This document shows positions 1,233 through 25,187 of a stretch of DNA of 25,187 bases, in pieces. Source of the DNA: a virus. Numbering within the stretch: the stretch's first letter is position 1; each line of letters starts with the position of its first letter. The stretch is taken from positions 1 through 25,187 of IMG/VR virus record IMGVR_UViG_3300012924_000026; one strand, given 5' to 3'. The notes under the pieces are model-generated. The model searched no databases and was not told the DNA's origin. It worked only from the letters and a program-made list of their open reading frames with translations. The position numbers and the translations under genes are program-made.

Positions 1233-1918
1233 CTTGCTATTACTTTGCGCCGGTCATTGCGCAATTGACGTGCGTTAAGCTGCACGCGCCAAGATCGTTT
1301 CCGTCTTGGTCACGGCATCGCTGCCGTGTTTGGACTGTAGCATCAATTGAATTTCTTCAATTGCCCTCTCGCTCAGTCTCTGCGGGTCGTGCTTCATAGC
1401 GGAAAGTTCATCAGCGAACTTATGCCGCGCCTGATCTATCCCAGAGCACTCAGTCGATCTAACTCCTTGGCAGTTATTCAACCACCACAAAGCTAGTTTC
1501 GCCTGTTCTCTTTTCAAGATCAGGTGGGGAAGCATTACTTCGATAATGCTACGCATGTTTGCGTCATTCAACAATTCCCAGGAAACACTATCACGCTGCT
1601 TTCCTTTGCCGTGTTTCCTGATAGACATGTGACCTCCAAAACGCTCACATAGTCCATCTAAAACAATCCGGCTGGTAACTGTTTGGGATATTCGAACTCG
1701 CGGCCTTACATAAAACCGCGACTTGAATTTCCCTGCCGCATACATACGCTGCACATCTATGCAACCTTCTCCATCGAAGAATCCGGCTAAATACTCAGGA
1801 GTCATTTGACAAACTCTATGGTATAAATACCGAACCATCTTACCACGTTCCCTCGGGTTGTCTACTAGAGAGTTTCCCGTTATTCAGAGAGGGTTTTACA
1901 TCCCCAAAATCAAAGGCT
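1233..1918 (-). mobile_element. group I self-splicing intron in the major capsid gene
   Basis: A 686-nt intron. P1: exon CATCCCT (1925-1919) pairs with intron GGGGATG (1905-1899), giving the diagnostic U-G wobble at the 5' splice site. P10: 3' exon GAAATC (1232-1227) pairs with GATTTT (1911-1906). The intron ends in G (1233). P3: CCCTCTC (1893-1887) with GAGAGGG (1370-1364). P7: GACTG (1378-1374) with CAGTC (1337-1333). P8: CAATTGAA-GAAA-TTCAATTG (1363-1344). P9: ACGGCA-GCGA-TGCCGT (1327-1312). P9.1: CCAAGA with TCTTGG (1309-1289). P4-P6 were not resolved by eye. The pairings fix both splice sites independently of protein homology, and splicing restores a continuous capsid frame. Confidence 0.93.
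1275..1805 (-). CDS. LAGLIDADG homing endonuclease (intron-encoded)
   Basis: A 176-residue protein from the ATG at 1805. An upstream in-frame ATG at 1838 would add 11 residues that overlap intron core sequence, so the shorter start is preferred. Near the N-terminus, L-A-G-F-F-D-G-E-G-C-I (residues 6-16) is a clear LAGLIDADG motif carrying the catalytic acidic residue. One motif and the length suggest a protein acting as a homodimer. Family knowledge: such enzymes cut the intronless allele at the insertion site and so spread the intron by double-strand-break repair. The last roughly 35 codons coincide with the ribozyme elements P7, P3', P8, P9 and P9.1, so the same bases serve protein and RNA. 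The ribosome site is weak (ATAGAG), fitting low expression. Confidence 0.88.
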   Translation of the reverse strand: MTPEYLAGFFDGEGCIDVQRMYAAGKFKSRFYVRPRVRISQTVTSRIVLDGLCERFGGHMSIRKHGKGKQRDSVSWELLNDANMRSIIEVMLPHLILKREQAKLALWWLNNCQGVRSTECSGIDQARHKFADELSAMKHDPQRLSERAIEEIQLMLQSKHGSDAVTKTETILARAA

Positions 1919-2016: not shown

Positions 2017-3069
2017 TCAGCGGCTGATGCCGGTGCGGGCTAACATGATGCGTTTCTTGATTTCGGCTAGTTCTTTCTGTCCTTGGACAGACCGGAATTC
2101 ACCTTTGGCGGCGCGGCGTTCAAAGTCTCGTATTTCCTCGACCGTGATAACCGGAGCCTGCGGAATTTCCGTACGAACGTCGCCTTTACCTCTTCCTACC
2201 GGGATCATGCCCCTTTGTGGGGTGGCCGGCGGCTGTTCAACGGGCAGGGTTGACTTGTACTGCTTGTAAATGGCGATGAACCGACGATGGTTTAGCGTGT
2301 CGCGGGCCTCTACTCCGAGGTCACGGCGCGTCTTTCCGGTCAGGTCATCCATGCCACCAAGCCACTGCAAGAACCCTGAAGTCTTGTCTACTACGTCCCA
2401 GTCCGGAACTGCTTCCCGAACTCGGTCCCAAAACGTTTCACTGCGAATCTGTTGCGCTTCCTGACGCGCGGCAGTTGTCTCGCGGCGCGCCTCTTCTACG
2501 GCGGACTGTACCGCAGGGCCGGAAATTTCGCCAGCAATCATCCGCTGAGCTTGTATCAACACCTTGGCTGCTTCGGTTCCCATGCGGTCGATTTCGGACT
2601 GCGGCAGATACCGCAGCAAATCGGCATCCGTGATGGGCCGATTGCGCTCCTGCTCCTGCTGCACCTGAATACGCTGCTGGCGCTCGGATTCGGCAAGACG
2701 AATGGCTTCCGCAGCCTGAGCCTGTGCGGCTTCCCGCTGCTGGCGTTCTCGCTGGCCTTCGGCTTTGAAATGCCCTTCCTGCCAAGTAAAACGCTCCTGC
2801 AACACGCGCAACTGTTCCTGAAGGTCCTCGATTGTCGGTCCTTGGGCAGTGGGCACCGGAGCAGCCTGAACGGACGGCGGATCTACGATGGGAGCAGGGT
2901 CCGGATTGATATTGCTCAACTCCTGCGGCGTAGACTGAGGCGCCGCTGCACGAACCGGATCGGGGTTAAGCCGTTCCAGATTGGCGCGGGCCAATTCCGC
3001 CTGTTTCGCAGTAATCGCCAGACGCGCCTGCGCAATACGTGACGCCTGACCTTCATTCGTTTGTGCCAT
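2017..3069 (-). CDS. probable capsid scaffolding protein
   Basis: A 350-residue hydrophilic protein between the portal-side genes and the capsid gene, the usual place for a scaffold. Residues about 1-35 are Ala/Gln/Arg-rich helix, 36-75 are Pro-rich linker, and about 78-145 and 185-215 are long Gln/Glu/Arg/Ala coiled coil (many R-Q-Q-R and Q-E-Q-E-R runs). A basic C-terminal tail (E-L-A-E-I-K-K-R-I-M-L-A-R) resembles the coat-binding helix of scaffolds. The family role is to direct procapsid assembly and then leave the shell. The ribosome site AAGGAG is strong. No protease motif was seen. Identity rests on composition and position, so it could also be another head-assembly protein. Confidence 0.7.
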   Translation of the reverse strand: MAQTNEGQASRIAQARLAITAKQAELARANLERLNPDPVRAAAPQSTPQELSNINPDPAPIVDPPSVQAAPVPTAQGPTIEDLQEQLRVLQERFTWQEGHFKAEGQRERQQREAAQAQAAEAIRLAESERQQRIQVQQEQERNRPITDADLLRYLPQSEIDRMGTEAAKVLIQAQRMIAGEISGPAVQSAVEEARRETTAARQEAQQIRSETFWDRVREAVPDWDVVDKTSGFLQWLGGMDDLTGKTRRDLGVEARDTLNHRRFIAIYKQYKSTLPVEQPPATPQRGMIPVGRGKGDVRTEIPQAPVITVEEIRDFERRAAKGEFRSVQGQKELAEIKKRIMLARTGISR

Positions 3070-3096: not shown

Positions 3097-3324
3097 TTAC
3101 CGCGATAATTCCGGCGCCTTGGCGAACTGCTCAAGGATTTCCTTGAGAATAGTCGCCCGGCCCTGCATCTTTGCTGTGATGGTTGCGTCTGATGCTGCCG
3201 GACTCAACAACATTTCAACTTCTTCATCGAAACTGGACTGGACCCACGCAAGAATCGTCTTGCCGTCCGGCAGTAATGCCACACGGGCCAACGCAAGGTA
3301 CTGTGGGGCAGTCAACCGATTCAT
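3097..3324 (-). CDS. small protein between portal and scaffold genes
   Basis: A 75-residue protein whose ATG overlaps the portal stop (ATGA, 3321-3324), so translation is probably coupled to the portal. It is mostly helical with an acidic middle (S-F-D-E-E-V-E-M-L-L) and no Cys, and I do not recognise a family. Its place in the head cluster suggests a head-assembly accessory role (inference). Confidence 0.65.
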   Translation of the reverse strand: MNRLTAPQYLALARVALLPDGKTILAWVQSSFDEEVEMLLSPAASDATITAKMQGRATILKEILEQFAKAPELSR

Positions 3325-5510
3325 TGCGGGCCTAACCCTTGCATCTGTGGCTGCGGCGCAGCAGGAGGCGGCGGCGCCGGCAGGGATGCCATTTCACGAG
3401 CACCGGCTTCCGGATGAACCATAGCTTCCTTGGCAAGCGACACGGCAGCGCGGGTATTGGACTGCCGTTCCTTGGACTGAATCTCGCTCGTCTTGACTTG
3501 CGCGTCCACCAGCGTGTCGCCGCTCGGCTTCGGAGGCTGCTGCTGCATGGCCTCCATCTGCTGGTTAAGCTGTTCCTCAGTCGGAATGATGTCGTCCACC
3601 GGCATGTCCAGAGCCTTGACCACTTCGGCCAGCACGGCACGGCGTCCTTTCATGCCGATGATCTGCATGTCGGTCGGGTTCGCAGTCATGCCCAAGAACT
3701 GGATGCGGACCTGTTGCAAATGTTCTTTGATGAGAACGGCGGCGGCGCCACGGGCGGACACGGTGCAGTCACCCTTGGCTAGACGGTTCGTGCCGTACAG
3801 CATCTGCCACTCATAGGCCAAAGTGATCGTCGGCCGGATGACGTGAAGGTCGATATTCGACACGGCGCGCTGCAAGCCTTTAGACGCGGTGCCCATTAGC
3901 ATCGACAGACCGGACGAGGTTGCCGCGGCGCCCTTCAAGTCCTGACTGCCGCCGTAGGCATAGCGCGGGATGCCAGTTAAGTCATCGGCTTCCTGCTTGA
4001 AGCGCTCCAAGACCGACATTAATTCGGTGGCGCGGGAGTCGGCCTGCCAGAATACGATAGCCTTTGTCGCATCCTGTGTTGGGGATCGGCTGGTATCCAA
4101 TTGGATCGTTTCCAGCGGCGCAATGGCTTTCGGATCTTCGCCATCTGCCAGTTTCGACACGTCCACGCCCATGATCGGGCCGCTAGCAAGGCCCATATTG
4201 GCGTTGAGCGCGCGGACGGCAGCATTGCCTAGGGCTTGGCAATCCTCCATCAAGTCATAGATTGAGTTTCCCCAAAATGCGCCCGGAATTGGGTCATAGC
4301 TAGACCCCCAATAAGGGCGACGGCCAAGCGGGTCATCGTTGATTTCGCAGCGGATGATTTCGTTATCGATCAGAATCGCATCGACTTCGTAGTAAGCCAG
4401 CGGATCGCCGTCGCCTATATCCATGCCCTGCGCCTGCAAGTCGCGTCCTGAAACAGCGTCCCAGCAATGCAGCGCATCAATCAGATAATCCGGCTTCCAG
4501 ATGTCGGTCGTGTAAGACTCGATTTCCCGGCGCTGGATATCCGACCACAGCCATGATTGCAGGTTGCCGCTCATGTTGAACTGCAAGATACGGCGGATCG
4601 CAGATTCAATATAGCCGGGCACGCCGATCATGTCGTAAAGATCGGACCGGGTGAAGCGCATCCGCTCGATGAAGCACCCATCTTGTGCGGACTTCGCTTG
4701 TGGTGCCGGGTAGGCATCGAATGGGCTAACGGTATCCCAAGCGCAGACGGCGGAATGAGTGACAACGGGCTTTTTACCCTGCCACTTCAATTGCCGCGTC
4801 ATTTTGGAGAATGGACCTTTCAGAATAGCGGTCGGGAACGTGGTGAATTCAGAAGTGAATTTGCGCGCGGCCTCATAGTAGCTGCCGACAATCATGGACT
4901 GTTCGATTTCATCTTCCATGCGTGCCGCACGTTCGCGGGCTTCTTTGCGCAGAGCTTCCAATTTTTCATCGTTCATGCGCTCTGATAGCGCGACCTCTAA
5001 GCCGACGTAATCCTCCATCGTCATCGGCTGGCCCTGCTGCGTGGCCTGCTGCATCCTCTGCTGCGCCATCTTGTAGGCTTTAGCGTTGATCGGTTCCGCG
5101 ACTTCAGGTGGCAATTCAGGGAGCGGGGATGGATCTAGGCCCCAAGGACGATCACCATTCGGCAGTAGCAGTTCGTTGATGGCCGCTTCGGCAGCGCGCA
5201 TCTTGACGGATGCTAGCGGCAGATACGGCGGTGACTGGCCATTGCGGCTGTATAGGGTATTGTCTTCGGGACTGTACTTGGCTCGGCGCGCTCGCAGGTT
5301 GGCAAGCAAGCGGTAATCGATTAACTCTTTGGCGCGGTAATTGTGAACCCATTTTTGCCTAAAGAAGCTCACAAGAGGCGTATACGAAACAGGTGATATG
5401 CCGTCCTCTTTTGGCGCTGTGTCGCTCGGCTTCAGGCCGCCGTCAACAAAAGCAACCGCAGGCGGATTATCTTGCGGTATGGCTGGCGATGCTTGCTGCG
5501 GACCGGCCAT
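3321..5510 (-). CDS. portal protein (head-tail connector)
   Basis: A 729-residue protein, the length expected for P22-type or podoviral portals, located between the terminase side and the scaffold. The portal ring sits at one vertex, nucleates head assembly and is the channel for DNA entry and exit. Features seen: a Pro-rich N-terminus; a long charged helical region about 150-215 (Q-Q-R-M-Q-Q-A, R-K-E-A-R-E-R-A-A-R-M-E-D-E); a central core with P-F-D-A-Y-P and R-R-P-Y-W-G-S-S-Y-D-P-I-P-G-A-F-W-G-N-S, typical of head-to-tail connecting proteins; and a Gln/Pro-rich C-terminal tail. It directly abuts the previous stop (TAA 5513-5511, ATG 5510) and overlaps the next gene by 4 nt. Confidence 0.88.
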   Translation of the reverse strand: MAGPQQASPAIPQDNPPAVAFVDGGLKPSDTAPKEDGISPVSYTPLVSFFRQKWVHNYRAKELIDYRLLANLRARRAKYSPEDNTLYSRNGQSPPYLPLASVKMRAAEAAINELLLPNGDRPWGLDPSPLPELPPEVAEPINAKAYKMAQQRMQQATQQGQPMTMEDYVGLEVALSERMNDEKLEALRKEARERAARMEDEIEQSMIVGSYYEAARKFTSEFTTFPTAILKGPFSKMTRQLKWQGKKPVVTHSAVCAWDTVSPFDAYPAPQAKSAQDGCFIERMRFTRSDLYDMIGVPGYIESAIRRILQFNMSGNLQSWLWSDIQRREIESYTTDIWKPDYLIDALHCWDAVSGRDLQAQGMDIGDGDPLAYYEVDAILIDNEIIRCEINDDPLGRRPYWGSSYDPIPGAFWGNSIYDLMEDCQALGNAAVRALNANMGLASGPIMGVDVSKLADGEDPKAIAPLETIQLDTSRSPTQDATKAIVFWQADSRATELMSVLERFKQEADDLTGIPRYAYGGSQDLKGAAATSSGLSMLMGTASKGLQRAVSNIDLHVIRPTITLAYEWQMLYGTNRLAKGDCTVSARGAAAVLIKEHLQQVRIQFLGMTANPTDMQIIGMKGRRAVLAEVVKALDMPVDDIIPTEEQLNQQMEAMQQQPPKPSGDTLVDAQVKTSEIQSKERQSNTRAAVSLAKEAMVHPEAGAREMASLPAPPPPAAPQPQMQGLGPQ

Positions 5511-6008: not shown

Positions 6009-6049
6009 GTAACGCTTACCGATGCGTTACTGGAATAGTAGCGCGCTAC
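6009..6049. repeat. two dyads at the edge of the glycosyltransferase cassette
   Basis: GTAACGC (6009-6015) pairs with GCGTTAC (6024-6030) around an 8-nt loop. Next to it, GTAGCGCGCTAC (6038-6049) is a perfect 12-bp palindrome overlapping the stop codon of the glycosyltransferase gene. No T-run follows on either strand, so these are not classic terminators. They may be an RNA structure, a protein-binding site or a cassette boundary. Confidence 0.4.
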
Positions 6050-6918
6050 TTGTTGCTAAGTCTAGCCTTCACTCCGGAAATAATGTCATCGGCACCCTGA
6101 ATGATGGCATCTACGCCATCCGAAAAAACGAATTCCTTGAACATATTGGCCTCGACGTGGCCCGGTTTGCACCAGGAATGAGCCATGGTCTTGAGGTGGT
6201 TGAAGTCCACCATAATGACCGGGGTGTCGTAATTGTCAGCGATGACGTTAAGCCCGGACTGAAAACCGACCAGCAGCTTTGCATCCCGCAGCAGTCGAAT
6301 CGACACATCCGGAGCGCCGTCAATTACCATTTCGGCCTGTATCCCCTGCTGCTGAAGCCTGGCTAAAACCGACTTCTGCATCCATGCATCGTAGCTGGCA
6401 CCGATCAGGACCACTGGCAAGTGCGCTAGGCTGTGTCGCTTCAGCATCGTCGCGTAGAGCATGGCCCACTGTTCCGGTGAGAACTTATCATGGTAGTGGC
6501 GCGAAGATCCGGAAACGTAGAGCATCAGGTAATCGCCCTCTTTCGCAGATGCATCCGGTACCTGCCATTGCACGCCCCATTCGACCTTGGCACCGATGTC
6601 TATGGCTTCCAAGCGGATGCCTTCTTCCAGCGGCCGATTAACGGCGTACTGGTGGACGATGGACGGATTATCAAGGATCGGCAGGATACCGAAGCGCCAT
6701 GTTGCGACGCGGTTATAGAACGCGCCATCTACCACTTTCGCCTTCACCTCTCCGCATTTCGGCAGTAGCGGCAAGAATTTCAGGGACCGGCGCTGAGTCT
6801 CATCCTCGCACGTCATTAGCACGTTGTAATTGACCCGGTCGAAATACGGATACATTTTCTGGTGAACCCAGAAGATGTCGCCAATTCCCTGCACTACGTC
6901 AAGCGTGACTTCCTTCAT
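6046..6918 (-). CDS. GT-B/GT9-like glycosyltransferase
   Basis: A 290-residue protein. The C-terminal half has the features of heptosyltransferase-like (GT9) enzymes: a phosphate-binding opening (L-M-L-Y-V-S-G-S-S-R, about 130-140), a strand with V-V-L-I-G-A-S-Y-D near 170, and the sugar-nucleotide segment D-A-K-L-L-V-G-F-Q-S-G-L-N-V-I-A-D near 213-229, ending in a P-V-I-M-V-D strand. The N-terminal half, with the G-I-G-D motif at about 11-14, would be the acceptor domain. It overlaps the upstream methyltransferase by 4 nt. It is likely to glycosylate a host surface sugar, DNA or a virion protein; the substrate cannot be read. Confidence 0.7.
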   Translation of the reverse strand: MKEVTLDVVQGIGDIFWVHQKMYPYFDRVNYNVLMTCEDETQRRSLKFLPLLPKCGEVKAKVVDGAFYNRVATWRFGILPILDNPSIVHQYAVNRPLEEGIRLEAIDIGAKVEWGVQWQVPDASAKEGDYLMLYVSGSSRHYHDKFSPEQWAMLYATMLKRHSLAHLPVVLIGASYDAWMQKSVLARLQQQGIQAEMVIDGAPDVSIRLLRDAKLLVGFQSGLNVIADNYDTPVIMVDFNHLKTMAHSWCKPGHVEANMFKEFVFSDGVDAIIQGADDIISGVKARLSNK

Positions 6919-7556
6919 ACGACTCTCCGGAAAACATAACTGCCGATGCCGTCTCGGCCAAGGTCTGACTCGCGCGTGTCGTGATAGATCATTTCAAATC
7001 CGTAACCGCGCATCAGGAACTGGAAGCCTTCATGCGTGCAGTAAATCAGATGTTCCCTTGGCTTGAAGTGCCGCGACTGCAAGACGTGCGCTCGATCACG
7101 ATAGATCGGCGTGGATACGAATAGAAGTTTCCGGCAATGGTCCAGCAATTCGCGTGGCTCTTTCAGATGTTCGATTACGTCCCACATCGTCATCGCGCCC
7201 ACGGCTCTGCCATCCCACTGCCGATCACCTAGCCACTCAAGCGCGTAGGGGTTCACGTCATGGCCGAAGCACTGTGCGGAGGATACGAATGCGCCGCCGC
7301 CTATGCCTACGTCTACCATGTCATCGGCGCCATTGGCCAGAAACTTTCTGACCAACGATAGCCTGGAAGCGGTCAGAGCAGCCCCCATTTTCGTGCTATC
7401 GCGCTTGCGGTACTCATCCCAATACTCACGCCCGTATAGGGATTCTCCGAACACTGGAAGCCAACCGATACCGATAGGGTCAATCCATTGCAAGGCATCG
7501 CCCCATATCTCGCCGAGGCTTGGAGCCTCACAAATTTTTGCTGGTAAGCCAGTCAT
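6915..7556 (-). CDS. class I SAM-dependent methyltransferase
   Basis: A 213-residue protein from the ATG at 7556, which has a good GAAGGG ribosome site. An upstream in-frame extension to 7649 would run deep into the neighbouring gene and is not used. Motif I is D-V-G-I-G-G-G-A-F, motif II includes H-D-V-N-P, and the post-I segment is M-W-D-V-I-E-H-L, typical of the Methyltransf_11/23 group that act on small molecules, sugars or lipids rather than DNA. It overlaps glycosyltransferase genes on both sides (29 nt upstream, 4 nt downstream). A joint sugar-modification pathway is likely. Confidence 0.8.
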   Translation of the reverse strand: MTGLPAKICEAPSLGEIWGDALQWIDPIGIGWLPVFGESLYGREYWDEYRKRDSTKMGAALTASRLSLVRKFLANGADDMVDVGIGGGAFVSSAQCFGHDVNPYALEWLGDRQWDGRAVGAMTMWDVIEHLKEPRELLDHCRKLLFVSTPIYRDRAHVLQSRHFKPREHLIYCTHEGFQFLMRGYGFEMIYHDTRESDLGRDGIGSYVFRRVV

Positions 7557-8484
7557 TGAATTTCCCTTCAAAATCTGAAATATGTTTCGGACAGTCGTGC
7601 CGCTCGTCGTAGCACATGCAGTAGTTGTCCGGAAGCGCAAAGCCGACATGATCGAATCCCGGCGCTATCCGGTCTGGTCCATTATGACCACCGATACCGC
7701 CGGCCACGCAATACAGCGGCGTACCCGTCAGCAGGCAAGCGGGAACTATCCATCCCGGAGTGCCGACACATACGGTCACGGCTTGAACTAAAGCTAGTAG
7801 ACGGCTGAATGCTAGTTCCCCGCCATACAACTGTACATCCGCAACAGGCAGCGGCTGCAACGCCCATTCGGCGCCGCGCTGTAAATCGGCAACAGTGATG
7901 ATGGAGTACCCTCGGCGGCGCAGAATATCAGCGGCTTGCGCGATGTACTGCGGATCGCAATTGCGCGCGGCATTGTGATACTCGGTGCGCAAGCATACGG
8001 GGCGGATCAGGGCCACTTTAGGCGGTAGATTCCATGGCGTCCCGAGGGGCGGCGCGTCCCATATTAGCGGCTTATCGGTGATGCCCATACAGTCCGCAAT
8101 ACCATATGGAATTCCGCCCTTGTCCATATGCTCGCGTCGGTACAGGATCGTCTGATATGGCAAGTCCTGCGGCGGCATGTACCACCGATATTCTTCCGAC
8201 TCGATAGCGGCGGCCTGAGTGCGCAGCGGAGTAGATGGTTTGACGCAATTCACGCCTAGATCAGAGAACAGCCATGGAAACGGAGTCCGAAGATAGCTGC
8301 CCCGGAAGTGCCGCAAGATAGGGCGCATATACATCGAATCGCCGAAACCCATCATCCCGAAGATGATGCGGGGGCTACCGTTATCGTAGGGGAGTGATTT
8401 GAATTCGTGACGGCGGGGGATGTTTGGCGGGGTGAATTTTGTTTCACCGACGTGGATCGTTACGGACTCGCCACTAAGATCCAC
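7528..8484 (-). CDS. second GT-B-like glycosyltransferase
   Basis: A 318-residue protein starting with GTG at 8484 (TAGTG overlap with the upstream stop). It has a G-F-G-D-S-M-Y-M-R-P segment near 47-56, like the N-terminal G-x-G-D loop of GT9 enzymes. A C-terminal Rossmann part contains V-A-L-I-R-P, G-Y-S-I-I-T-V-A-D and the V-C-V-G-T-P-G-W-I-V-P-A-C-L-L-T-G-T-P region that normally holds the nucleotide-sugar site. The C-terminus is Cys-rich (C-M-C-Y-D-E-R-H-D-C). It forms a three-gene cassette with the methyltransferase and the next glycosyltransferase. The acceptor is unknown. Confidence 0.7.
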   Translation of the reverse strand: MDLSGESVTIHVGETKFTPPNIPRRHEFKSLPYDNGSPRIIFGMMGFGDSMYMRPILRHFRGSYLRTPFPWLFSDLGVNCVKPSTPLRTQAAAIESEEYRWYMPPQDLPYQTILYRREHMDKGGIPYGIADCMGITDKPLIWDAPPLGTPWNLPPKVALIRPVCLRTEYHNAARNCDPQYIAQAADILRRRGYSIITVADLQRGAEWALQPLPVADVQLYGGELAFSRLLALVQAVTVCVGTPGWIVPACLLTGTPLYCVAGGIGGHNGPDRIAPGFDHVGFALPDNYCMCYDERHDCPKHISDFEGKFNDWLTSKNL

Positions 8485-8809: not shown

Positions 8810-9078
8810 TGCACTTCCCCCGGAACCGTCTCAACAATCTCCACACAAATCCGATGCCCATACCCACCGCCCATACTCAACGGCATCAATTCAGTCTTGC
8901 CCTTGTCCGGCACGCACCGCACAGTTATCCAGCTATGCGCATGCCGCGTCTTGGCACAGTGATGCTTGACCAGAGAAATAATCACGTCGCACATCTGACC
9001 CCATGAGATATTCCATTCTTCGCGGGCTACGGGATAGTCGGTGCGGAAGCCGTATAGGTACTGCCGGGTCTCACTCAC
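8806..9078 (-). CDS. small protein downstream of terminase
   Basis: A 90-residue protein starting with GTG at 9078, overlapping the terminase stop (GTGA). It contains W-N-I-S-W-G-Q-M-C-D-V-I, K-H-H-C-A-K-T-R-H-A-H-S-W and a Gly-rich G-G-G-Y-G-H turn. One Cys/His cluster could bind metal. No family is recognised. Tight coupling suggests co-expression with packaging genes. Confidence 0.6.
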   Translation of the reverse strand: MSETRQYLYGFRTDYPVAREEWNISWGQMCDVIISLVKHHCAKTRHAHSWITVRCVPDKGKTELMPLSMGGGYGHRICVEIVETVPGEVH

Positions 9079-10586
9079 AGCGGCCTACCCTGCCTCAACG
9101 GCATCTTGCGACGGCGCCCCATCTGCACATTGGGCGAGTAGATGTATTCGGCGAACGAATACACCAGCGAATCCATTTCGTCTGGCGATTCTTTCTTAGT
9201 CCGGTCCAAATACTGCTTCTTCGTCTCTACCTCTATCTGCATGGCCGCGTTGTAACCAGCCTGTATGGATTCCATCTGCTCGATCAGCGGAGATTCATAC
9301 GGAATGTCAGCTTGCCGCAGCCAATCACGGCAGCGGCTATATAACTCGCTACGGAGATTGCGGAACTGGATCGGATCACTCGATCCATGTGATCCGTAGA
9401 CGTGAACGATAGGTGGCACTACTTGCGGCGTCTCTGAATGTAGCTGTGACAGCCGATCCGCGACACCTTTGCCGATACCGTTGGCATCGACGCAGATACA
9501 GCGGACGTTACGCTCTACCCTGACAATATCAATGATGCGCGCAACAAGAACCATGGTGTCAGGCGTGTACTGCTCGCTGCGCTGCCAGACGAGTTTGCCG
9601 CCGCGCCGATTCGTTATGACGGTCTTGTTCGTGCCGCCACCAGCCACGTCCACCGCAATAACTGCCGGCTCCATGGCAAGCTGCTGAATCGGTATCTCAT
9701 TCTTCTTCGCGTTATATACCCAATCGCTGGGGAAGAACTGCAACTCACCGACGCGCGGAAACTCAGCACGGACGCGGACGCGGAAGAAATCGTGGTCCTC
9801 GCCGTAGTCGGCAGCCCATTGTGCAATCAGTTTTTTATTGGTGGACTTAGCCTCACGCCCGTCCACCTTGCCATTCTTGATGCCGGGTCCATTCGGCTTG
9901 ATCCAGCGCGAATCGAAGCGGCCCCAGCATTCCTTGAATCGGCCGGTGTTGCGCGTCGTGTTGCCCGTCACCAGCCAGATAATCTCGGTGTCATCATCCG
10001 TAGTGCTGGCATCCTGATATTCCCAGATGATATCGTCGATCGAACTGGCCTCATCAGACCACAGAATGACGCGCCGACCCTTGTTGTGCATGCCGGCAGT
10101 GGCTTCCGGCTTCTCTGCCGACCATGGCACGGCGTCAATGCGGTAATCCTTCGCATTCTCGCCCGGGCTGATGAGGGATGTTGCCTGTAACTCCAATAGC
10201 CCCTTGGTTATCGACAGTCGGCGCCACTTCGACAACTCAGCCCATGTCTTGGTGCGTAGCTGGTGCTGCGTGTTCGCAGTAACAGTGCCGCGCGTGAATG
10301 GTGATGTGGACATAGCCCAATCTAGAACGATTGCGCCTAAACTCGTTTTCCCGACGCCGTTAGCTGCGCCAATGCTGATACGGATCGGCTCGTTACGGCC
10401 CGGAGTGCGCAATGCCTTACCAAGCGAATCCAGAACGGTACACTGCCAATCATCCGGCCTCTCCCATCCTTCTAAATCGCGCTCGCCCCATGGATAGGCC
10501 CAGAATGCGTAGCCGAGTGGATCTAATACGAACTCCCCGGCTTTGGTGGCGATTTCTTTTAGGGATTGAGGGGATACGGCAGCCAC
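9075..10586 (-). CDS. terL: terminase large subunit
   Basis: A 503-residue packaging ATPase and nuclease. The ATPase has a Walker A-like loop G-A-A-N-G-V-G-K-T (73-81), Walker B V-I-L-W-S-D-E-A-S (173-181, catalytic E179) and a coupling motif T-G-N-T-T (about 207-211). The RNase H-like nuclease has acidic residues in A-V-D-V-A-G-G-G (D313), C-V-D-A-N-G-I-G (D368) and P-D-E-M-D-S-L (D472), the usual metal-binding set. It starts with GTG at 10586, overlapping the KTSC gene stop as TAGTG. It works with the portal to fill the head; no small terminase is certain nearby. Confidence 0.9.
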   Translation of the reverse strand: MAAVSPQSLKEIATKAGEFVLDPLGYAFWAYPWGERDLEGWERPDDWQCTVLDSLGKALRTPGRNEPIRISIGAANGVGKTSLGAIVLDWAMSTSPFTRGTVTANTQHQLRTKTWAELSKWRRLSITKGLLELQATSLISPGENAKDYRIDAVPWSAEKPEATAGMHNKGRRVILWSDEASSIDDIIWEYQDASTTDDDTEIIWLVTGNTTRNTGRFKECWGRFDSRWIKPNGPGIKNGKVDGREAKSTNKKLIAQWAADYGEDHDFFRVRVRAEFPRVGELQFFPSDWVYNAKKNEIPIQQLAMEPAVIAVDVAGGGTNKTVITNRRGGKLVWQRSEQYTPDTMVLVARIIDIVRVERNVRCICVDANGIGKGVADRLSQLHSETPQVVPPIVHVYGSHGSSDPIQFRNLRSELYSRCRDWLRQADIPYESPLIEQMESIQAGYNAAMQIEVETKKQYLDRTKKESPDEMDSLVYSFAEYIYSPNVQMGRRRKMPLRQGRPL

Positions 10587-12494: not shown

Positions 12495-12800
12495 TTCGTT
12501 ATAAATTCGTACATAAATTCGTACACATTTCCCAATGAAATCAACTATCTTAGTTAAATTCGTTAAATTCGTACCGTCTGTACATAAACAGGGGTATATA
12601 TAAAATTGTGTACATATGTCTACAAGAAACTATAAGTATATGTTTATATTAATATTATTTATATTTAAATCCATAAACTTCGTAATCTGTACAGATGCAT
12701 AAAAACACGGAAGCTACGAATTTAACGAAGATAACGAATTTATTGTGTAATCAATATGATGCTGGCGAAGTTATCTACTAAGTTATCTACTAAGACAATA
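12495..12800. repeat. AT-rich iteron-like region, candidate origin or control region
   Basis: The gap from 12359 to 12857 has no gene and from about 12495 is extremely A/T-rich. TAAATTCGT occurs six times: forward at 12502, 12514, 12555 and 12564, inverted at 12716-12724 and 12734-12742. ATAAATTCGTAC is a perfect 12-bp tandem at 12501-12524, GTTAAATTC a 9-bp tandem at 12553-12570, and AGTTATCTACTA a 12-bp tandem at 12769-12792. TGTACATA appears at 12579 and 12609. Repeated short motifs beside an easily melted block are typical of replication origins, but multi-operator control of the divergent genes is equally possible. Confidence 0.65.
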
Positions 12801-19147: not shown

Positions 19148-19326
19148 TTCACTTCTCCTGTCTGCGGGTTGGCCAATAACCGTTCGGCTTCTTGCATGCC
19201 GCCCAGAACGTGCGCAACATAAATCTCTCGGCTAGCAATGTCTGTGACTTCAGCTTTAGACCATCCCGGATTCATACGGTCGAAATATTCGTAAGCCTTT
19301 GCGCTCCAGTCAATCGGACTATTCAT
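19144..19326 (-). CDS. 60-residue protein, unknown function
   Basis: A small protein with an ATGA overlap on both sides, rich in aromatic residues in the first part (W-S-A-K-A-Y-E-Y-F-D-R-M-N-P-G-W) and helical after. No Cys, no clear motif. It lies directly between the GIY-YIG-like and the Cys-rich gene. Confidence 0.55.
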   Translation of the reverse strand: MNSPIDWSAKAYEYFDRMNPGWSKAEVTDIASREIYVAHVLGGMQEAERLLANPQTGEVK

Positions 19327-19640
19327 TGTTTATCCCCCGGCCTGCGGGTTTGGTTGGCGGCATGCGCACGATTGAGTCTAATTTGTTTTACTTCGCCGGT
19401 AATTGTTAGGCGGATCAATCCATCGGTATCATCAAACCATTCGCCAGAAAGACGCCGACCATCAAAAAGTATATGTAGGGCTTTCTCTAAATTACAGCCG
19501 CCCAAGAATTTCTTGCAAAATATGACTGGCCGGCCAAGTTCATTTTTGAGCGAACGAAGCCTATATTTAATATTCAGTGTCCAGCCAATCTTGACGTTGT
19601 TGTTAGATGGGTCCAGAACGATATAAACGTAACTATTCAC
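19323..19640 (-). CDS. GIY-YIG/T5orf172-like protein
   Basis: A 105-residue protein that starts M-N-S-Y-V-Y-I-V-L-D, matching the GIY-YIG strand pair, then V-K-I-G-W-T (the second half of the motif), R-Y-R-L-R-S-L with the conserved Arg, and F-D-G-R-R-L-S-G-E-W-F with the catalytic-position Glu. This is the T5orf172/MUG113 style of short GIY-YIG proteins. They include homing and host-attack nucleases, but many are of unknown role. It follows the Cro-like gene (ATGA) and so is expressed early. Confidence 0.7.
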   Translation of the reverse strand: MNSYVYIVLDPSNNNVKIGWTLNIKYRLRSLKNELGRPVIFCKKFLGGCNLEKALHILFDGRRLSGEWFDDTDGLIRLTITGEVKQIRLNRAHAANQTRRPGDKQ

Positions 19641-23024: not shown

Positions 23025-23147
23025 CTACTCCGCCTGCGCCTTAATCCAAGCACTATCAGGCAATGCGCCGCACTCTCTCAGATCGCGGGCGCGGCGGTAG
23101 ACTTCGGCGGCTTGGTCGTGGGCGGTGAGGGTGGCTTTATTGTCCAT
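23025..23147 (-). CDS. 40-residue protein with possible premature TAG
   Basis: ATG 23147 lies within the end of the methyltransferase gene. It starts M-D-N-K-A-T-L-T-A-H-D-Q-A-A-E-V-Y-R-R-A and is charged and helical. After the TAG (23027-23025) the same frame continues E-R-A-C-A-V-F-E-R-S-Y-K-N-E-L-A-P to a TAA at 22971, only 2 nt before the next gene, as expected if the original gene ended there. Function unknown. Confidence 0.5.
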   Translation of the reverse strand: MDNKATLTAHDQAAEVYRRARDLRECGALPDSAWIKAQAE

Positions 23148-23886
23148 CGAACATTCCAGCTTGTTCGGGCTTGGTCTGGATAGATGGTGCGAATAACTGC
23201 CCCTGTGCATAGGCGGTTTCTATTCGGCGGCAGGCAATGTCGAAGTATTTGGGTTCGCGCTCTATTCCGATGAATTGTCGCCCAGTATTCAAGCATGCGA
23301 CGCCGGTTGTTCCGCTGCCCATGTACCAATCCGCAATTATGTCGCCGGGATCTGTGAAATCGGTTACAAAATCAGTAATCAGTCCCAAGGGCTTTCCAGT
23401 TGGATGGCCGCTATTATTTTGGCCTTTAGGCCAAGAATAGAAAGCGTGTTTTCCGCCACCGTTCCATCGCTTACGCCCAGGTCTGTGACAGATAGCAATA
23501 GCCTCCCATCCCATTCCCGGCCTGTCACCAGTAAATTGCGGGGCGCCATCTGGTTTTCTCCATATGCCGAGTCTAACGAGCAACCCGGCCGCATCAAGAG
23601 CATGCGCGAATTTCCATTCGCAAGTGAATACTACCCAGCGTTCGGCCTTATCAACCCATTGGCGGCATAGATCAACCATTTCTTCGCAATTGATTCCGCC
23701 GAATCCCAGAGCTTGACCAGCAGGCTCTCCATTTCTGAGCAAGATGCCAGATAAATGTTGATCATGAGTATCTGCCTGTCCATAAGGCGGATCAGTAATC
23801 ACTGCATCCACTTTCGGCAACGTCGGTAGAATTTCGCGGCTATCCCCTAAATAGAGTGTGGCAGCGCCAATGATAACTTGATTCAC
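23137..23886 (-). CDS. DNA methyltransferase (N6-adenine or N4-cytosine, beta-class order)
   Basis: A 249-residue protein from GTG 23886, which overlaps the stop of the membrane peptide gene (GTGA). Motif IV D-P-P-Y-G is at about 32-36, and motif I-like M-G-S-G-T-T-G is at about 189-195, followed by F-I-G-I-E-R-E-P-K-Y-F-D-I-A. This order (IV before I) marks beta-class amino-methyltransferases. In phages such enzymes protect DNA against host restriction. The longer frame from 24207 covers two other genes and is not used. No partner nuclease was seen, so it is probably solitary. Confidence 0.85.
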   Translation of the reverse strand: MNQVIIGAATLYLGDSREILPTLPKVDAVITDPPYGQADTHDQHLSGILLRNGEPAGQALGFGGINCEEMVDLCRQWVDKAERWVVFTCEWKFAHALDAAGLLVRLGIWRKPDGAPQFTGDRPGMGWEAIAICHRPGRKRWNGGGKHAFYSWPKGQNNSGHPTGKPLGLITDFVTDFTDPGDIIADWYMGSGTTGVACLNTGRQFIGIEREPKYFDIACRRIETAYAQGQLFAPSIQTKPEQAGMFDGQ

Positions 23887-23987
23887 AACTTCCAAATCCC
23901 CACCCACCAAGCCCCCGCCAGCACAAGCAGAACTGTGGCGGTTGCGGCGTAGATGAGTAGGACGGTTTCGGCGGCAATAATTATCAT
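23883..23987 (-). CDS. 34-residue single-helix membrane peptide
   Basis: ATG 23987 overlaps the HNH-like gene stop and its TGA overlaps the methyltransferase GTG. The peptide is nearly one membrane helix: V-L-L-I-Y-A-A-T-A-T-V-L-L-V-L-A-G-A-W-W, with a short K-L end. Too short for most gene finders; double overlap supports it. Confidence 0.55.
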   Translation of the reverse strand: MIIIAAETVLLIYAATATVLLVLAGAWWVGIWKL

Positions 23988-24418
23988 TTGGTCCTCTTAC
24001 CGCGCTTTTGCCTAGGAATGTATCCCTCCACAAAAGCATGTAGCCCTTGGCCTCGCCGCGTATTACACGGCAGGCATACTGGGACCACATCAAGAGGTTT
24101 GGAATAATCGCGATGGTCATATGCCAAAGCCGGTTTATTGCAGTCTGCGCAAGGCGTTTTGCCGTCCGAAAGAAGCGGAAGAACTCCATTCTTTTTGGCT
24201 CTTGCAACAGCGCTATAAGCTACGCGTCTATATGGCGACCAGCGAGTCTTTGCAATCCTTTGCGAAAGTCTTTCTTGCAACAACCGATTTTGCCGAATTT
24301 CTTGGCTGCGCAACTCAGCAGCTTTCCTCTGGGCAGGGGCGCACTTTTTACAGAGCCATGCAAAGCCAGCATTGGCCTTAAAGCTATCTCCGCAATCGTA
24401 ACAAAGCCACGTTTTCAT
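23984..24418 (-). CDS. HNH/zinc-type protein
   Basis: A 144-residue protein. It begins W-L-C-Y-D-C-G-D-S-F and L-C-K-K-C (zinc ribbon), has a basic middle (R-W-S-P-Y-R-R-V-A-Y), and a C-terminal HNH-like part: C-A-D-C-N, then Y-D-H-R-D-Y-S-K-P-L-D-V, then P-V-C-L-P-C-N-T-R-R-G. The D-H-R-D-Y and the C-x2-C pairs match the beta-beta-alpha metal fold of this group. It may be a DNA nuclease or a DNA-binding protein. It follows the second Cro-like gene (ATGA). Confidence 0.75.
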   Translation of the reverse strand: MKTWLCYDCGDSFKANAGFAWLCKKCAPAQRKAAELRSQEIRQNRLLQERLSQRIAKTRWSPYRRVAYSAVARAKKNGVLPLLSDGKTPCADCNKPALAYDHRDYSKPLDVVPVCLPCNTRRGQGLHAFVEGYIPRQKRGKRTK

Positions 24419-24726: not shown

Positions 24727-25187
24727 ATGAATGAGGGGAAGGAAGTCGTAACGAGTTACAAGGGCTTCGATGCGGACATGAAGTGCCGTGGATTCGCCTA
24801 TAAAGTCGGCGAAACTTACACGCATGCCGGCGCAGTCTCCAAGTGCAATTCCGGTTTCCATGCCTGTGCCTATCCGCTGGACGTTCTGGCCTACTATCCC
24901 GCAGCCGGCTCCAATTTCGCCGTGGTCGAACAGACCGGCACTTTGGATCGCGCCACGGACGATTCCAAGATCGCCAGCTCGTCCATCAAAATCACGGCTT
25001 CCATCGGTCTGCCGGGACTCATCAAGGCGGCGATTGAGTACACGTTCAGCCGAGTGAATCCGGCAGTTGCCGACAACAATAAGGCCGTCAGTGGCGCGGC
25101 CTCGAACAGCGGCTACAGTGGCGCGGCCTCGAACAGCGGCGTCAGGGGCGCGGCCTCGAACAGCGGCGACAGTGGCGCGGCCTCGAA
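24727..25187 (+). CDS. DUF7666-like protein with C-terminal tandem repeats (partial)
   Basis: ATG 24727 with GGAGAAGAG upstream; the frame stays open to the window edge (153 codons and 2 nt). The N-terminal 110 residues match the DUF7666 pattern: Y-K-G-F-D-A-D-M-K-C-R-G-F, K-V-G-E-T-Y, S-G-F-H-A-C-A-Y-P-L-D-V, D-D-S-K-I-A-S-S-S-I. Then nine-residue repeats x-S-G-A-A-S-N-S-G follow, with x = V, Y, V, D. Family knowledge: such proteins are common in phages, often with Gly/Ala/Ser/Asn repeats, and their function is unknown. The repeats may form a beta-solenoid. Confidence 0.75.
   Translation, partial: MNEGKEVVTSYKGFDADMKCRGFAYKVGETYTHAGAVSKCNSGFHACAYPLDVLAYYPAAGSNFAVVEQTGTLDRATDDSKIASSSIKITASIGLPGLIKAAIEYTFSRVNPAVADNNKAVSGAASNSGYSGAASNSGVRGAASNSGDSGAAS
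25087..25187 (+). repeat. 27-nt in-frame tandem repeats
   Basis: Copies begin at 25087, 25114, 25141 and 25168 (the last cut by the window edge). The units are nearly identical: bases change mainly in the first codon (GTC, TAC, GTC, GAC) plus one AGT-to-AGG. Such low divergence with a single variable codon suggests recent expansion or active copy-number change. Confidence 0.9.

Follow-up and report, generated by a model that had tools for sequence, protein, structure and literature searches.

Our analysis indicates that positions 1233-1918 (minus strand) of a phage record from IMG/VR (25,187 bp, analysed over its full length and termed the window below) are very probably a mobile group I intron, which sits in the major capsid gene between the Pro and Glu codons of a conserved F-I-P-E-I-W stretch and is one of at least 12 introns at that same site. 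Its RNA would splice to restore a 318-aa capsid protein and its nuclease would drive homing. The decisive support for an intron, as judged from sequence, is comparative, namely an empty site in a close relative (L001) and 11 sibling introns that covary with the one in the window.

Split capsid gene and empty site

The major capsid gene lies on the minus strand of the window, preceded on its 5' side by terminase-like (9075-10586), portal (3321-5510) and scaffold-like (2017-3069) genes, and is split by a 686-nt insert (exactly 1233-1918) that separates, in phase 0, the Pro codon from the Glu codon in the conserved capsid start. Exon 1 (1919-1996, minus; 26 codons, MATTGIARAGGYADYSSTGTGGQFIP) has its own ATG at 1996 after AAGGAGAA and encodes the N-terminus of the uninterrupted L001 capsid, the 26 codons being the same except for G/A and I/T differences. 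Exon 2 (354-1232, minus) begins EIWSMMLTEK. When joined, the two form a single frame for a 318-aa capsid, which matches the PHROG 267 major head protein family (E 1.9e-38), and the predicted spliced junction (CAGTTCATCCCT-GAAATCTGGTCA) specifies the peptide GQFIP-EIWS. So the original prediction that splicing restores F-I-P-E-I-W agrees with the reading frame. The related motif F-[I/T]-P-x-x-[W/F]-S is unbroken in the capsids of Rhizobium phage RHph_TM3_14A, Microcystis phage MaAM05, Pelagibacter phage HTVC033P and phage D6E. Because the insert holds in-frame stops, an intein can be ruled out and it follows from the frame that capsid production in this phage would depend on splicing.

The one close relative found in our scan of viral contigs, L001, has a capsid 92% identical to that of the window and a continuous gene, reading GGCCAGTTCACCCCC joined directly to GAACTGTGGAGC where the window reads GGTCAGTTCATCCCT, the intron and then GAAATCTGGTCA. 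Its junction, QFTP^ELWS (here and below, the caret marks the insertion point), coincides exactly with the predicted splice site; since L001 is continuous across it, the ends of the insert match both predicted splice sites exactly. Another 96 alignable capsid records, 80 from viral and 16 from bacterial contigs, are continuous at the insertion place (16 of 17 bacterial-contig capsids were counted; the 17th is near the match limit and also reads through).

Some further features of the window are recorded here in their own right. Three overlapping genes between terminase and portal (6046-8484, minus) are unusual cargo in a head module; one has a weak methyltransferase match (PF13489, E 1.1e-5) and the other two are without Pfam match. 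A T5orf172 (GIY-YIG type) domain protein (19323-19640, minus) may be a second mobile nuclease in the record, and an N6/N4 DNA methyltransferase (PF01555, E 4.1e-23) is encoded at 23137-24207 (minus). An AT-rich intergenic stretch between divergent gene blocks (12505-12740), possibly an operator or origin, contains recurring TAAATTCGT(T/A) motifs, and its positions 12550-12581 form a 32-nt imperfect inverted repeat with 12707-12738. A 27-bp tandem repeat (GGCGCGGCCTCGAACAGCGGC...) at 25086-25187 runs off the record end and the contig probably ends inside it.

Ribozyme structure

All elements named in the original prediction - P1, P10, the terminal G, P3, P7, P8 and P9 - could be located in the window, and the coordinates it gave for the intron and both splice sites proved exact. 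The intron ends in a G at 1233. The internal guide sequence GGGGATG (1899-1905, minus), which forms the 3' strand of P1, pairs with exon positions 1919-1925 over 7 bp (CAUCCCU/GGGGAUG) and places a U.G at the 5' splice site, while the P10 strand GATTTT (1906-1911, minus) pairs with GAAATC of exon 2 (1227-1232) over 6 bp. P3 combines CCCTCTC (1887-1893, minus) with GAGAGGG (1364-1370), hence CCCUCUC/GAGAGGG in the RNA. The block at 1844-1879 (minus) comprises P4-P5-P4', followed by the 5' strands of P6 and P6a, and contains AACTCTCTAGTAGACAA as in T4 td. In the 3' half of the core (1304-1391, minus) we find P6a'/P6' (1384-1391), the 5' strand of P7 (GACTG, 1374-1378), P3' (GAGAGGG, 1364-1370), P8 (1344-1363; 8 bp), P7' (CAGTC, 1333-1337; GACUG/CAGUC with its partner) and P9 (1311-1328; 7 bp).

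As for chance, the full-strength P7-P3'-P8-P7' arrangement arose in 0 of 2000 shuffles (with the P4 block held fixed) and a 7-bp P1 in 125 of 20,000. A loose P3/P7/P8 descriptor was discarded as stand-alone proof: with P3 allowed anywhere upstream, its topology turned up in 45 of 1000 shuffles, which makes it weak evidence. The 20-mer AACTCTCTAGTAGACAA occurs in 23 viral contigs, and for 12 of the 19 that were scanned Rfam places a group I intron right there.

P7.1/P7.2, sought between P7 and P3' in the window intron, were not found there, the gap amounting to three bases (AGC). Subgroup IA2 (T4 td type), considered for the td-like motif, was therefore rejected, and it is because P7.1/P7.2 are missing that the intron, despite its td-like P4/P5 motif, is filed under neither IA1 nor IA2. 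Going by its sequence, we classify it as a new lineage of group I introns at a defined site, with a nuclease of the I-CreI type.

In the mechanism we propose, the 686-nt RNA would fold within the capsid mRNA into a group I ribozyme, in which P1 and P10 would hold the two exon ends and P3/P7 would form the guanosine site. Two transesterifications would then excise the 686 nt and join the exons, so that the 318-aa capsid protein can be made.

Same-site family and covariation

Searches with the window sequence itself were negative, as blastn found no match to the intron among 50,697 phage records and a close-relative search with the single window nuclease sequence found none. The lineage was recovered from viral contigs by nuclease profiles, built first from distant relatives and then from the first siblings. 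The window intron is one member of a family of at least 12 recurring at one codon boundary. The 12 distinct complete introns (window, L135, L136, L138, L139, L140, L215, L217, L219, L220, L221, L227) measure 601-713 nt and all sit in phase 0 at F-[I/V]-P^E, with exon 1 ending in CCCT, exon 2 starting with GAA and the intron ending in G; a 13th (L232) is cut by a contig end and stands outside this count. Identity of the host capsids to that of the window goes down to about 28% (L138), and the family nucleases are 35-54% identical to the window nuclease.

For covariation, the 12 introns were aligned with the ORF body omitted and with helices named beforehand from the window. Standard pairs fill 94.9% of the cells versus 81.8% in column shuffles, changes occur on both sides in 20 of 40 pairs, and 0 of 500 shuffles reach the observed paired percentage, number of double-changed pairs or covariation score; when the partner is slid by one to three columns, pairing falls to 34-47%. 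P1 keeps its U.G in 12/12 and covaries with the exon in two pairs (A-U to G-C, C-G to U-A), the guide sequence following the exon in L138-L140. P10, 4-7 bp long in 12/12, tracks the exon as well, being GAAATC/GATTTT in the window, GAAATT/AATTTT in L136 and L221 and GAAG/CTTT in L138-L140. Three pairs of P3 covary with 100% of cells paired, P6a covaries, and P8 is a hairpin in every one of the 12. Moreover, a hold-out covariance model built from eight siblings, the window excluded, has a single match in the window (1304-1388, minus; 69.3 bits, E 9.5e-16), which together with the pair counts backs the 3' half of the core. Judged by pair counts (n=12), P8/P7 in each member and the hold-out model, the family thus has the P3-P4-P5-P6-P7-P8 core with P3/P7 pseudoknot that characterises group I introns.

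An Rfam group I match, by which the original prediction was to be checked, did not materialise, though the family-built model matches as above: the window yielded no group I match at either gathering or relaxed thresholds, and neither did a search for the Rfam family across the record (RF00028 is absent even at E 5), and Rfam missed 11 of 11 sibling introns of the capsid-site lineage. A match to RF00028 is not a defining feature of the group I class. Rfam does detect the ordinary ORF-less second intron in L217 (81.9 bits). In the window intron, P6a and P6a' are ~450 bases apart with the 0.56-kb LAGLIDADG ORF between them, and most likely it is this nuclease ORF, inserted in P6a, that splits the core and blinds Rfam to it.

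Nuclease and its overlap with the ribozyme

The endonuclease ORF (1275-1838, minus) encodes 187 aa if translation begins at ATG 1838; alignment with the siblings is consistent with a start at ATG 1805. Its product has the motif YLAGFFDGEG and matches Pfam LAGLIDADG_1 (PF00961) over the cut-off (E 8.2e-08), and the family nuclease profile matches I-CvuI, I-MsoI and I-CreI chains, with the best E (3e-8) for I-CvuI. These three nucleases have a single motif and act as homodimers. We predict the encoded protein to be a single-motif LAGLIDADG endonuclease of the I-CreI/I-MsoI class.

The ORF begins in the loop of P6a and continues through P6', P7, P3', P8, P7' and P9, so coding and ribozyme bases are shared. 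In P6a, the partner strand consists of the nuclease codons Met-Lys-X-Asp-Pro-Gln-Arg-Leu and the other strand precedes the nuclease start; X (His, Arg, Met, Val or Gln) varies in step with that opposite strand. Eight introns have G-C as the last pair of P7 and the other four have A-U, which on one side means a silent Leu change (CTG/CTA) and on the other CAG turning into the stop TAG. RNA pairing in P7 thus accounts for this nuclease-shortening change. Overlap between ORFs and group I cores is a known phenomenon (PMC3984707). It is unusually legible here, with P6a and P7 pairs that co-change though one or both sides lie in codons.

Proposed mobility and target site

By analogy with homing introns, the intron-encoded endonuclease should cleave capsid genes that lack the intron at this conserved site, and repair of the break would spread the intron. 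The distribution is patchy: in a quick tree of a chosen sample of 63 capsids, at least 8 gains or losses are required to explain where the intron occurs (well-supported branches impose 8 of these), and the window groups with the intronless L001. CCCT^GAA is present in 12/12 carriers versus 7/96 non-carriers, and ATCCCT in 11 of 96 continuous capsids, so the target would either be limited to part of the gene pool or have been copied with the intron. In L041, the unoccupied site reads TTCATCCCT^GAAATCTGG and is identical to carriers over TTCATCCCT^GAAATCTGGTCGG. A palindromic nuclease target, looked for in one register, gave no signal. By eye, TTCA-TCCC-TGAA around the site reads as an inverted repeat, both in the window and in several other introns of the family, which we note as a lead only.

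Nucleases of the family also occur free-standing, directly 5' of intact capsid genes and between these and scaffold-like genes, in L137, L225 and L226 (near-identical) as well as in L228. This resembles the psbA case, in which a free-standing nuclease reportedly targets an intron insertion site. A possible scenario, which we put forward tentatively, is a lineage specialised on the F-I-P^E codons of HK97-fold-type capsid genes that passes between distant phages in two forms, the intron and the free-standing nuclease next to an intact gene. In this scenario, the capsid gene of co-infecting phages without the intron may be a further substrate of the nuclease, which would then serve as a weapon, and ribozyme pairing would override protein sequence at the overlap, with the last P7 pair setting the stop codon of the nuclease. 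For phage PhiPA3, an intron nuclease is reported to act as a weapon against co-infecting phage (PMC11620839).

Alternative explanations

Could the nuclease gene have inserted alone, without a working intron, and the capsid be translated from ATG 1220 without exon 1? A 288-aa ORF does begin at 1220, and the free-standing family nucleases directly 5' of intact capsid genes (L137, L225, L226, L228) show an arrangement of this sort. In those loci, however, the capsid keeps its whole N-terminus, and exon 1 of the window retains its ATG, the ribosome-site-like AAGGAGAA and the 26 codons of L001 (bar the G/A and I/T differences). Nor does such an insertion predict 12 introns that keep exon ends, P1, P10 and a core with compensatory changes, which to our minds makes it highly improbable. 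An intron that is group I by descent but has lost splicing, with the capsid supplied otherwise or the phage defective, would be compatible with an uncultured contig as the source and is rated as very unlikely: the window copy retains all core pairs and an open nuclease frame of 187 aa, the exons are likewise open, with 92% identity to the intact relative, and a second capsid gene was not recognised in the window.

As the contig is metagenomic, two unrelated reads might also have been joined inside the capsid gene. This we regard as practically negligible and already refuted by the siblings, since homologous inserts occupy this codon in 11 further contigs, which come almost all from separate metagenomes, and since both ends of the insert coincide exactly with the predicted splice sites. 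Our preferred explanation hence stays with a mobile group I intron that would be spliced from the capsid mRNA.

Comparison with known systems

Capsid introns as such are already known, so we make no claim to uniqueness (PMC3706429, PMC7886860), and the rarity implied by the original prediction has to be toned down given LittleE, Tuc2009 and crAss-like phages; what appears to be new, from the loci compared here, is a site-specific lineage at F-I-P^E. In the non-subscription literature covered, we found no description of a lineage fixed at this site. The capsid intron of Mycobacterium phage LittleE is spliced in vivo, as demonstrated by RT-PCR and N-terminal sequencing (PMC3706429). Like that of the window, it (locus L003) is a group I-like intron, ~0.82 kb long, that interrupts the major capsid gene within its N-terminal part and comes with a LAGLIDADG-type nuclease, and its site, GTGG^YAVPP, apparently belongs to the same N-arm motif as TGTGGQFIP^E of the window (aligned by eye). 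The LittleE insertion, however, lies four codons further upstream in the motif, its nuclease is on the opposite strand, and its weak Rfam score (30.7 bits) contrasts with the lack of any Rfam match for the window intron; no sequence match was found between the two introns. In Lactococcus phage Tuc2009 (mp4, NC_002703; L005), a group I intron with a nuclease ORF (Rfam 43.2 bits) also splits the head gene, yet its site follows GNTLKFPAWS, the ORF is annotated as HNH and, as far as tested, it is not homologous to our lineage. For Delta and Zeta crAss-like phages, group I introns repeatedly inserted in MCP genes have been reported from protein domains (PMC7886860); likened by description, these recur in capsid genes of metagenomic phages as the window lineage does.

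With the T4 td intron (IA2) and other phage group I introns, the window intron shares the P4-P5 motif AACNTCTCTAGTAGACAAYCC and the overall P3-P9 plan. Unlike td, it lacks P7.1/P7.2 between P7 and P3', encodes a LAGLIDADG rather than a GIY-YIG nuclease, and has an ORF that overlaps P7-P9 instead of lying wholly within a loop. Its nuclease is like I-CreI, I-CvuI and I-MsoI in being a single-motif LAGLIDADG protein (~150-190 aa) encoded by a group I intron. While these three reside in chloroplast rRNA genes, the site of the window nuclease family is a phage capsid gene.

For many phages, the capsid gene serves as a marker more often than any other and is also the most strongly expressed, yet introns of this family interrupt it close to its start. 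Automatic annotation of loci such as this one would give a capsid without N-terminus plus an orphan 'HNH' nuclease and, with the family invisible to Rfam, further capsid genes split by introns have probably escaped notice. Furthermore, empty site, occupied site and free-standing nuclease beside the intact target make up a natural series in one gene, which suits tests of how mobile introns choose and spread through essential genes.

Other introns were met along the way. In L217, another group I intron, this one without an ORF (L217:2885-3095; Rfam 81.9 bits), lies in the capsid gene between SIWSD and DAAQQ, so that this one gene carries two introns of different kinds. L107 (1453-3610) is an intron-dense gene with three Rfam group I matches, one of them over the cut-off, and up to seven weak-to-strong matches to the family model in 2.2 kb. 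Finally, L142, L143 and L092 have other group I introns at other sites, in genes that by eye resemble other phage capsid families, and those of L142 and L143 contain LAGLIDADG nucleases.
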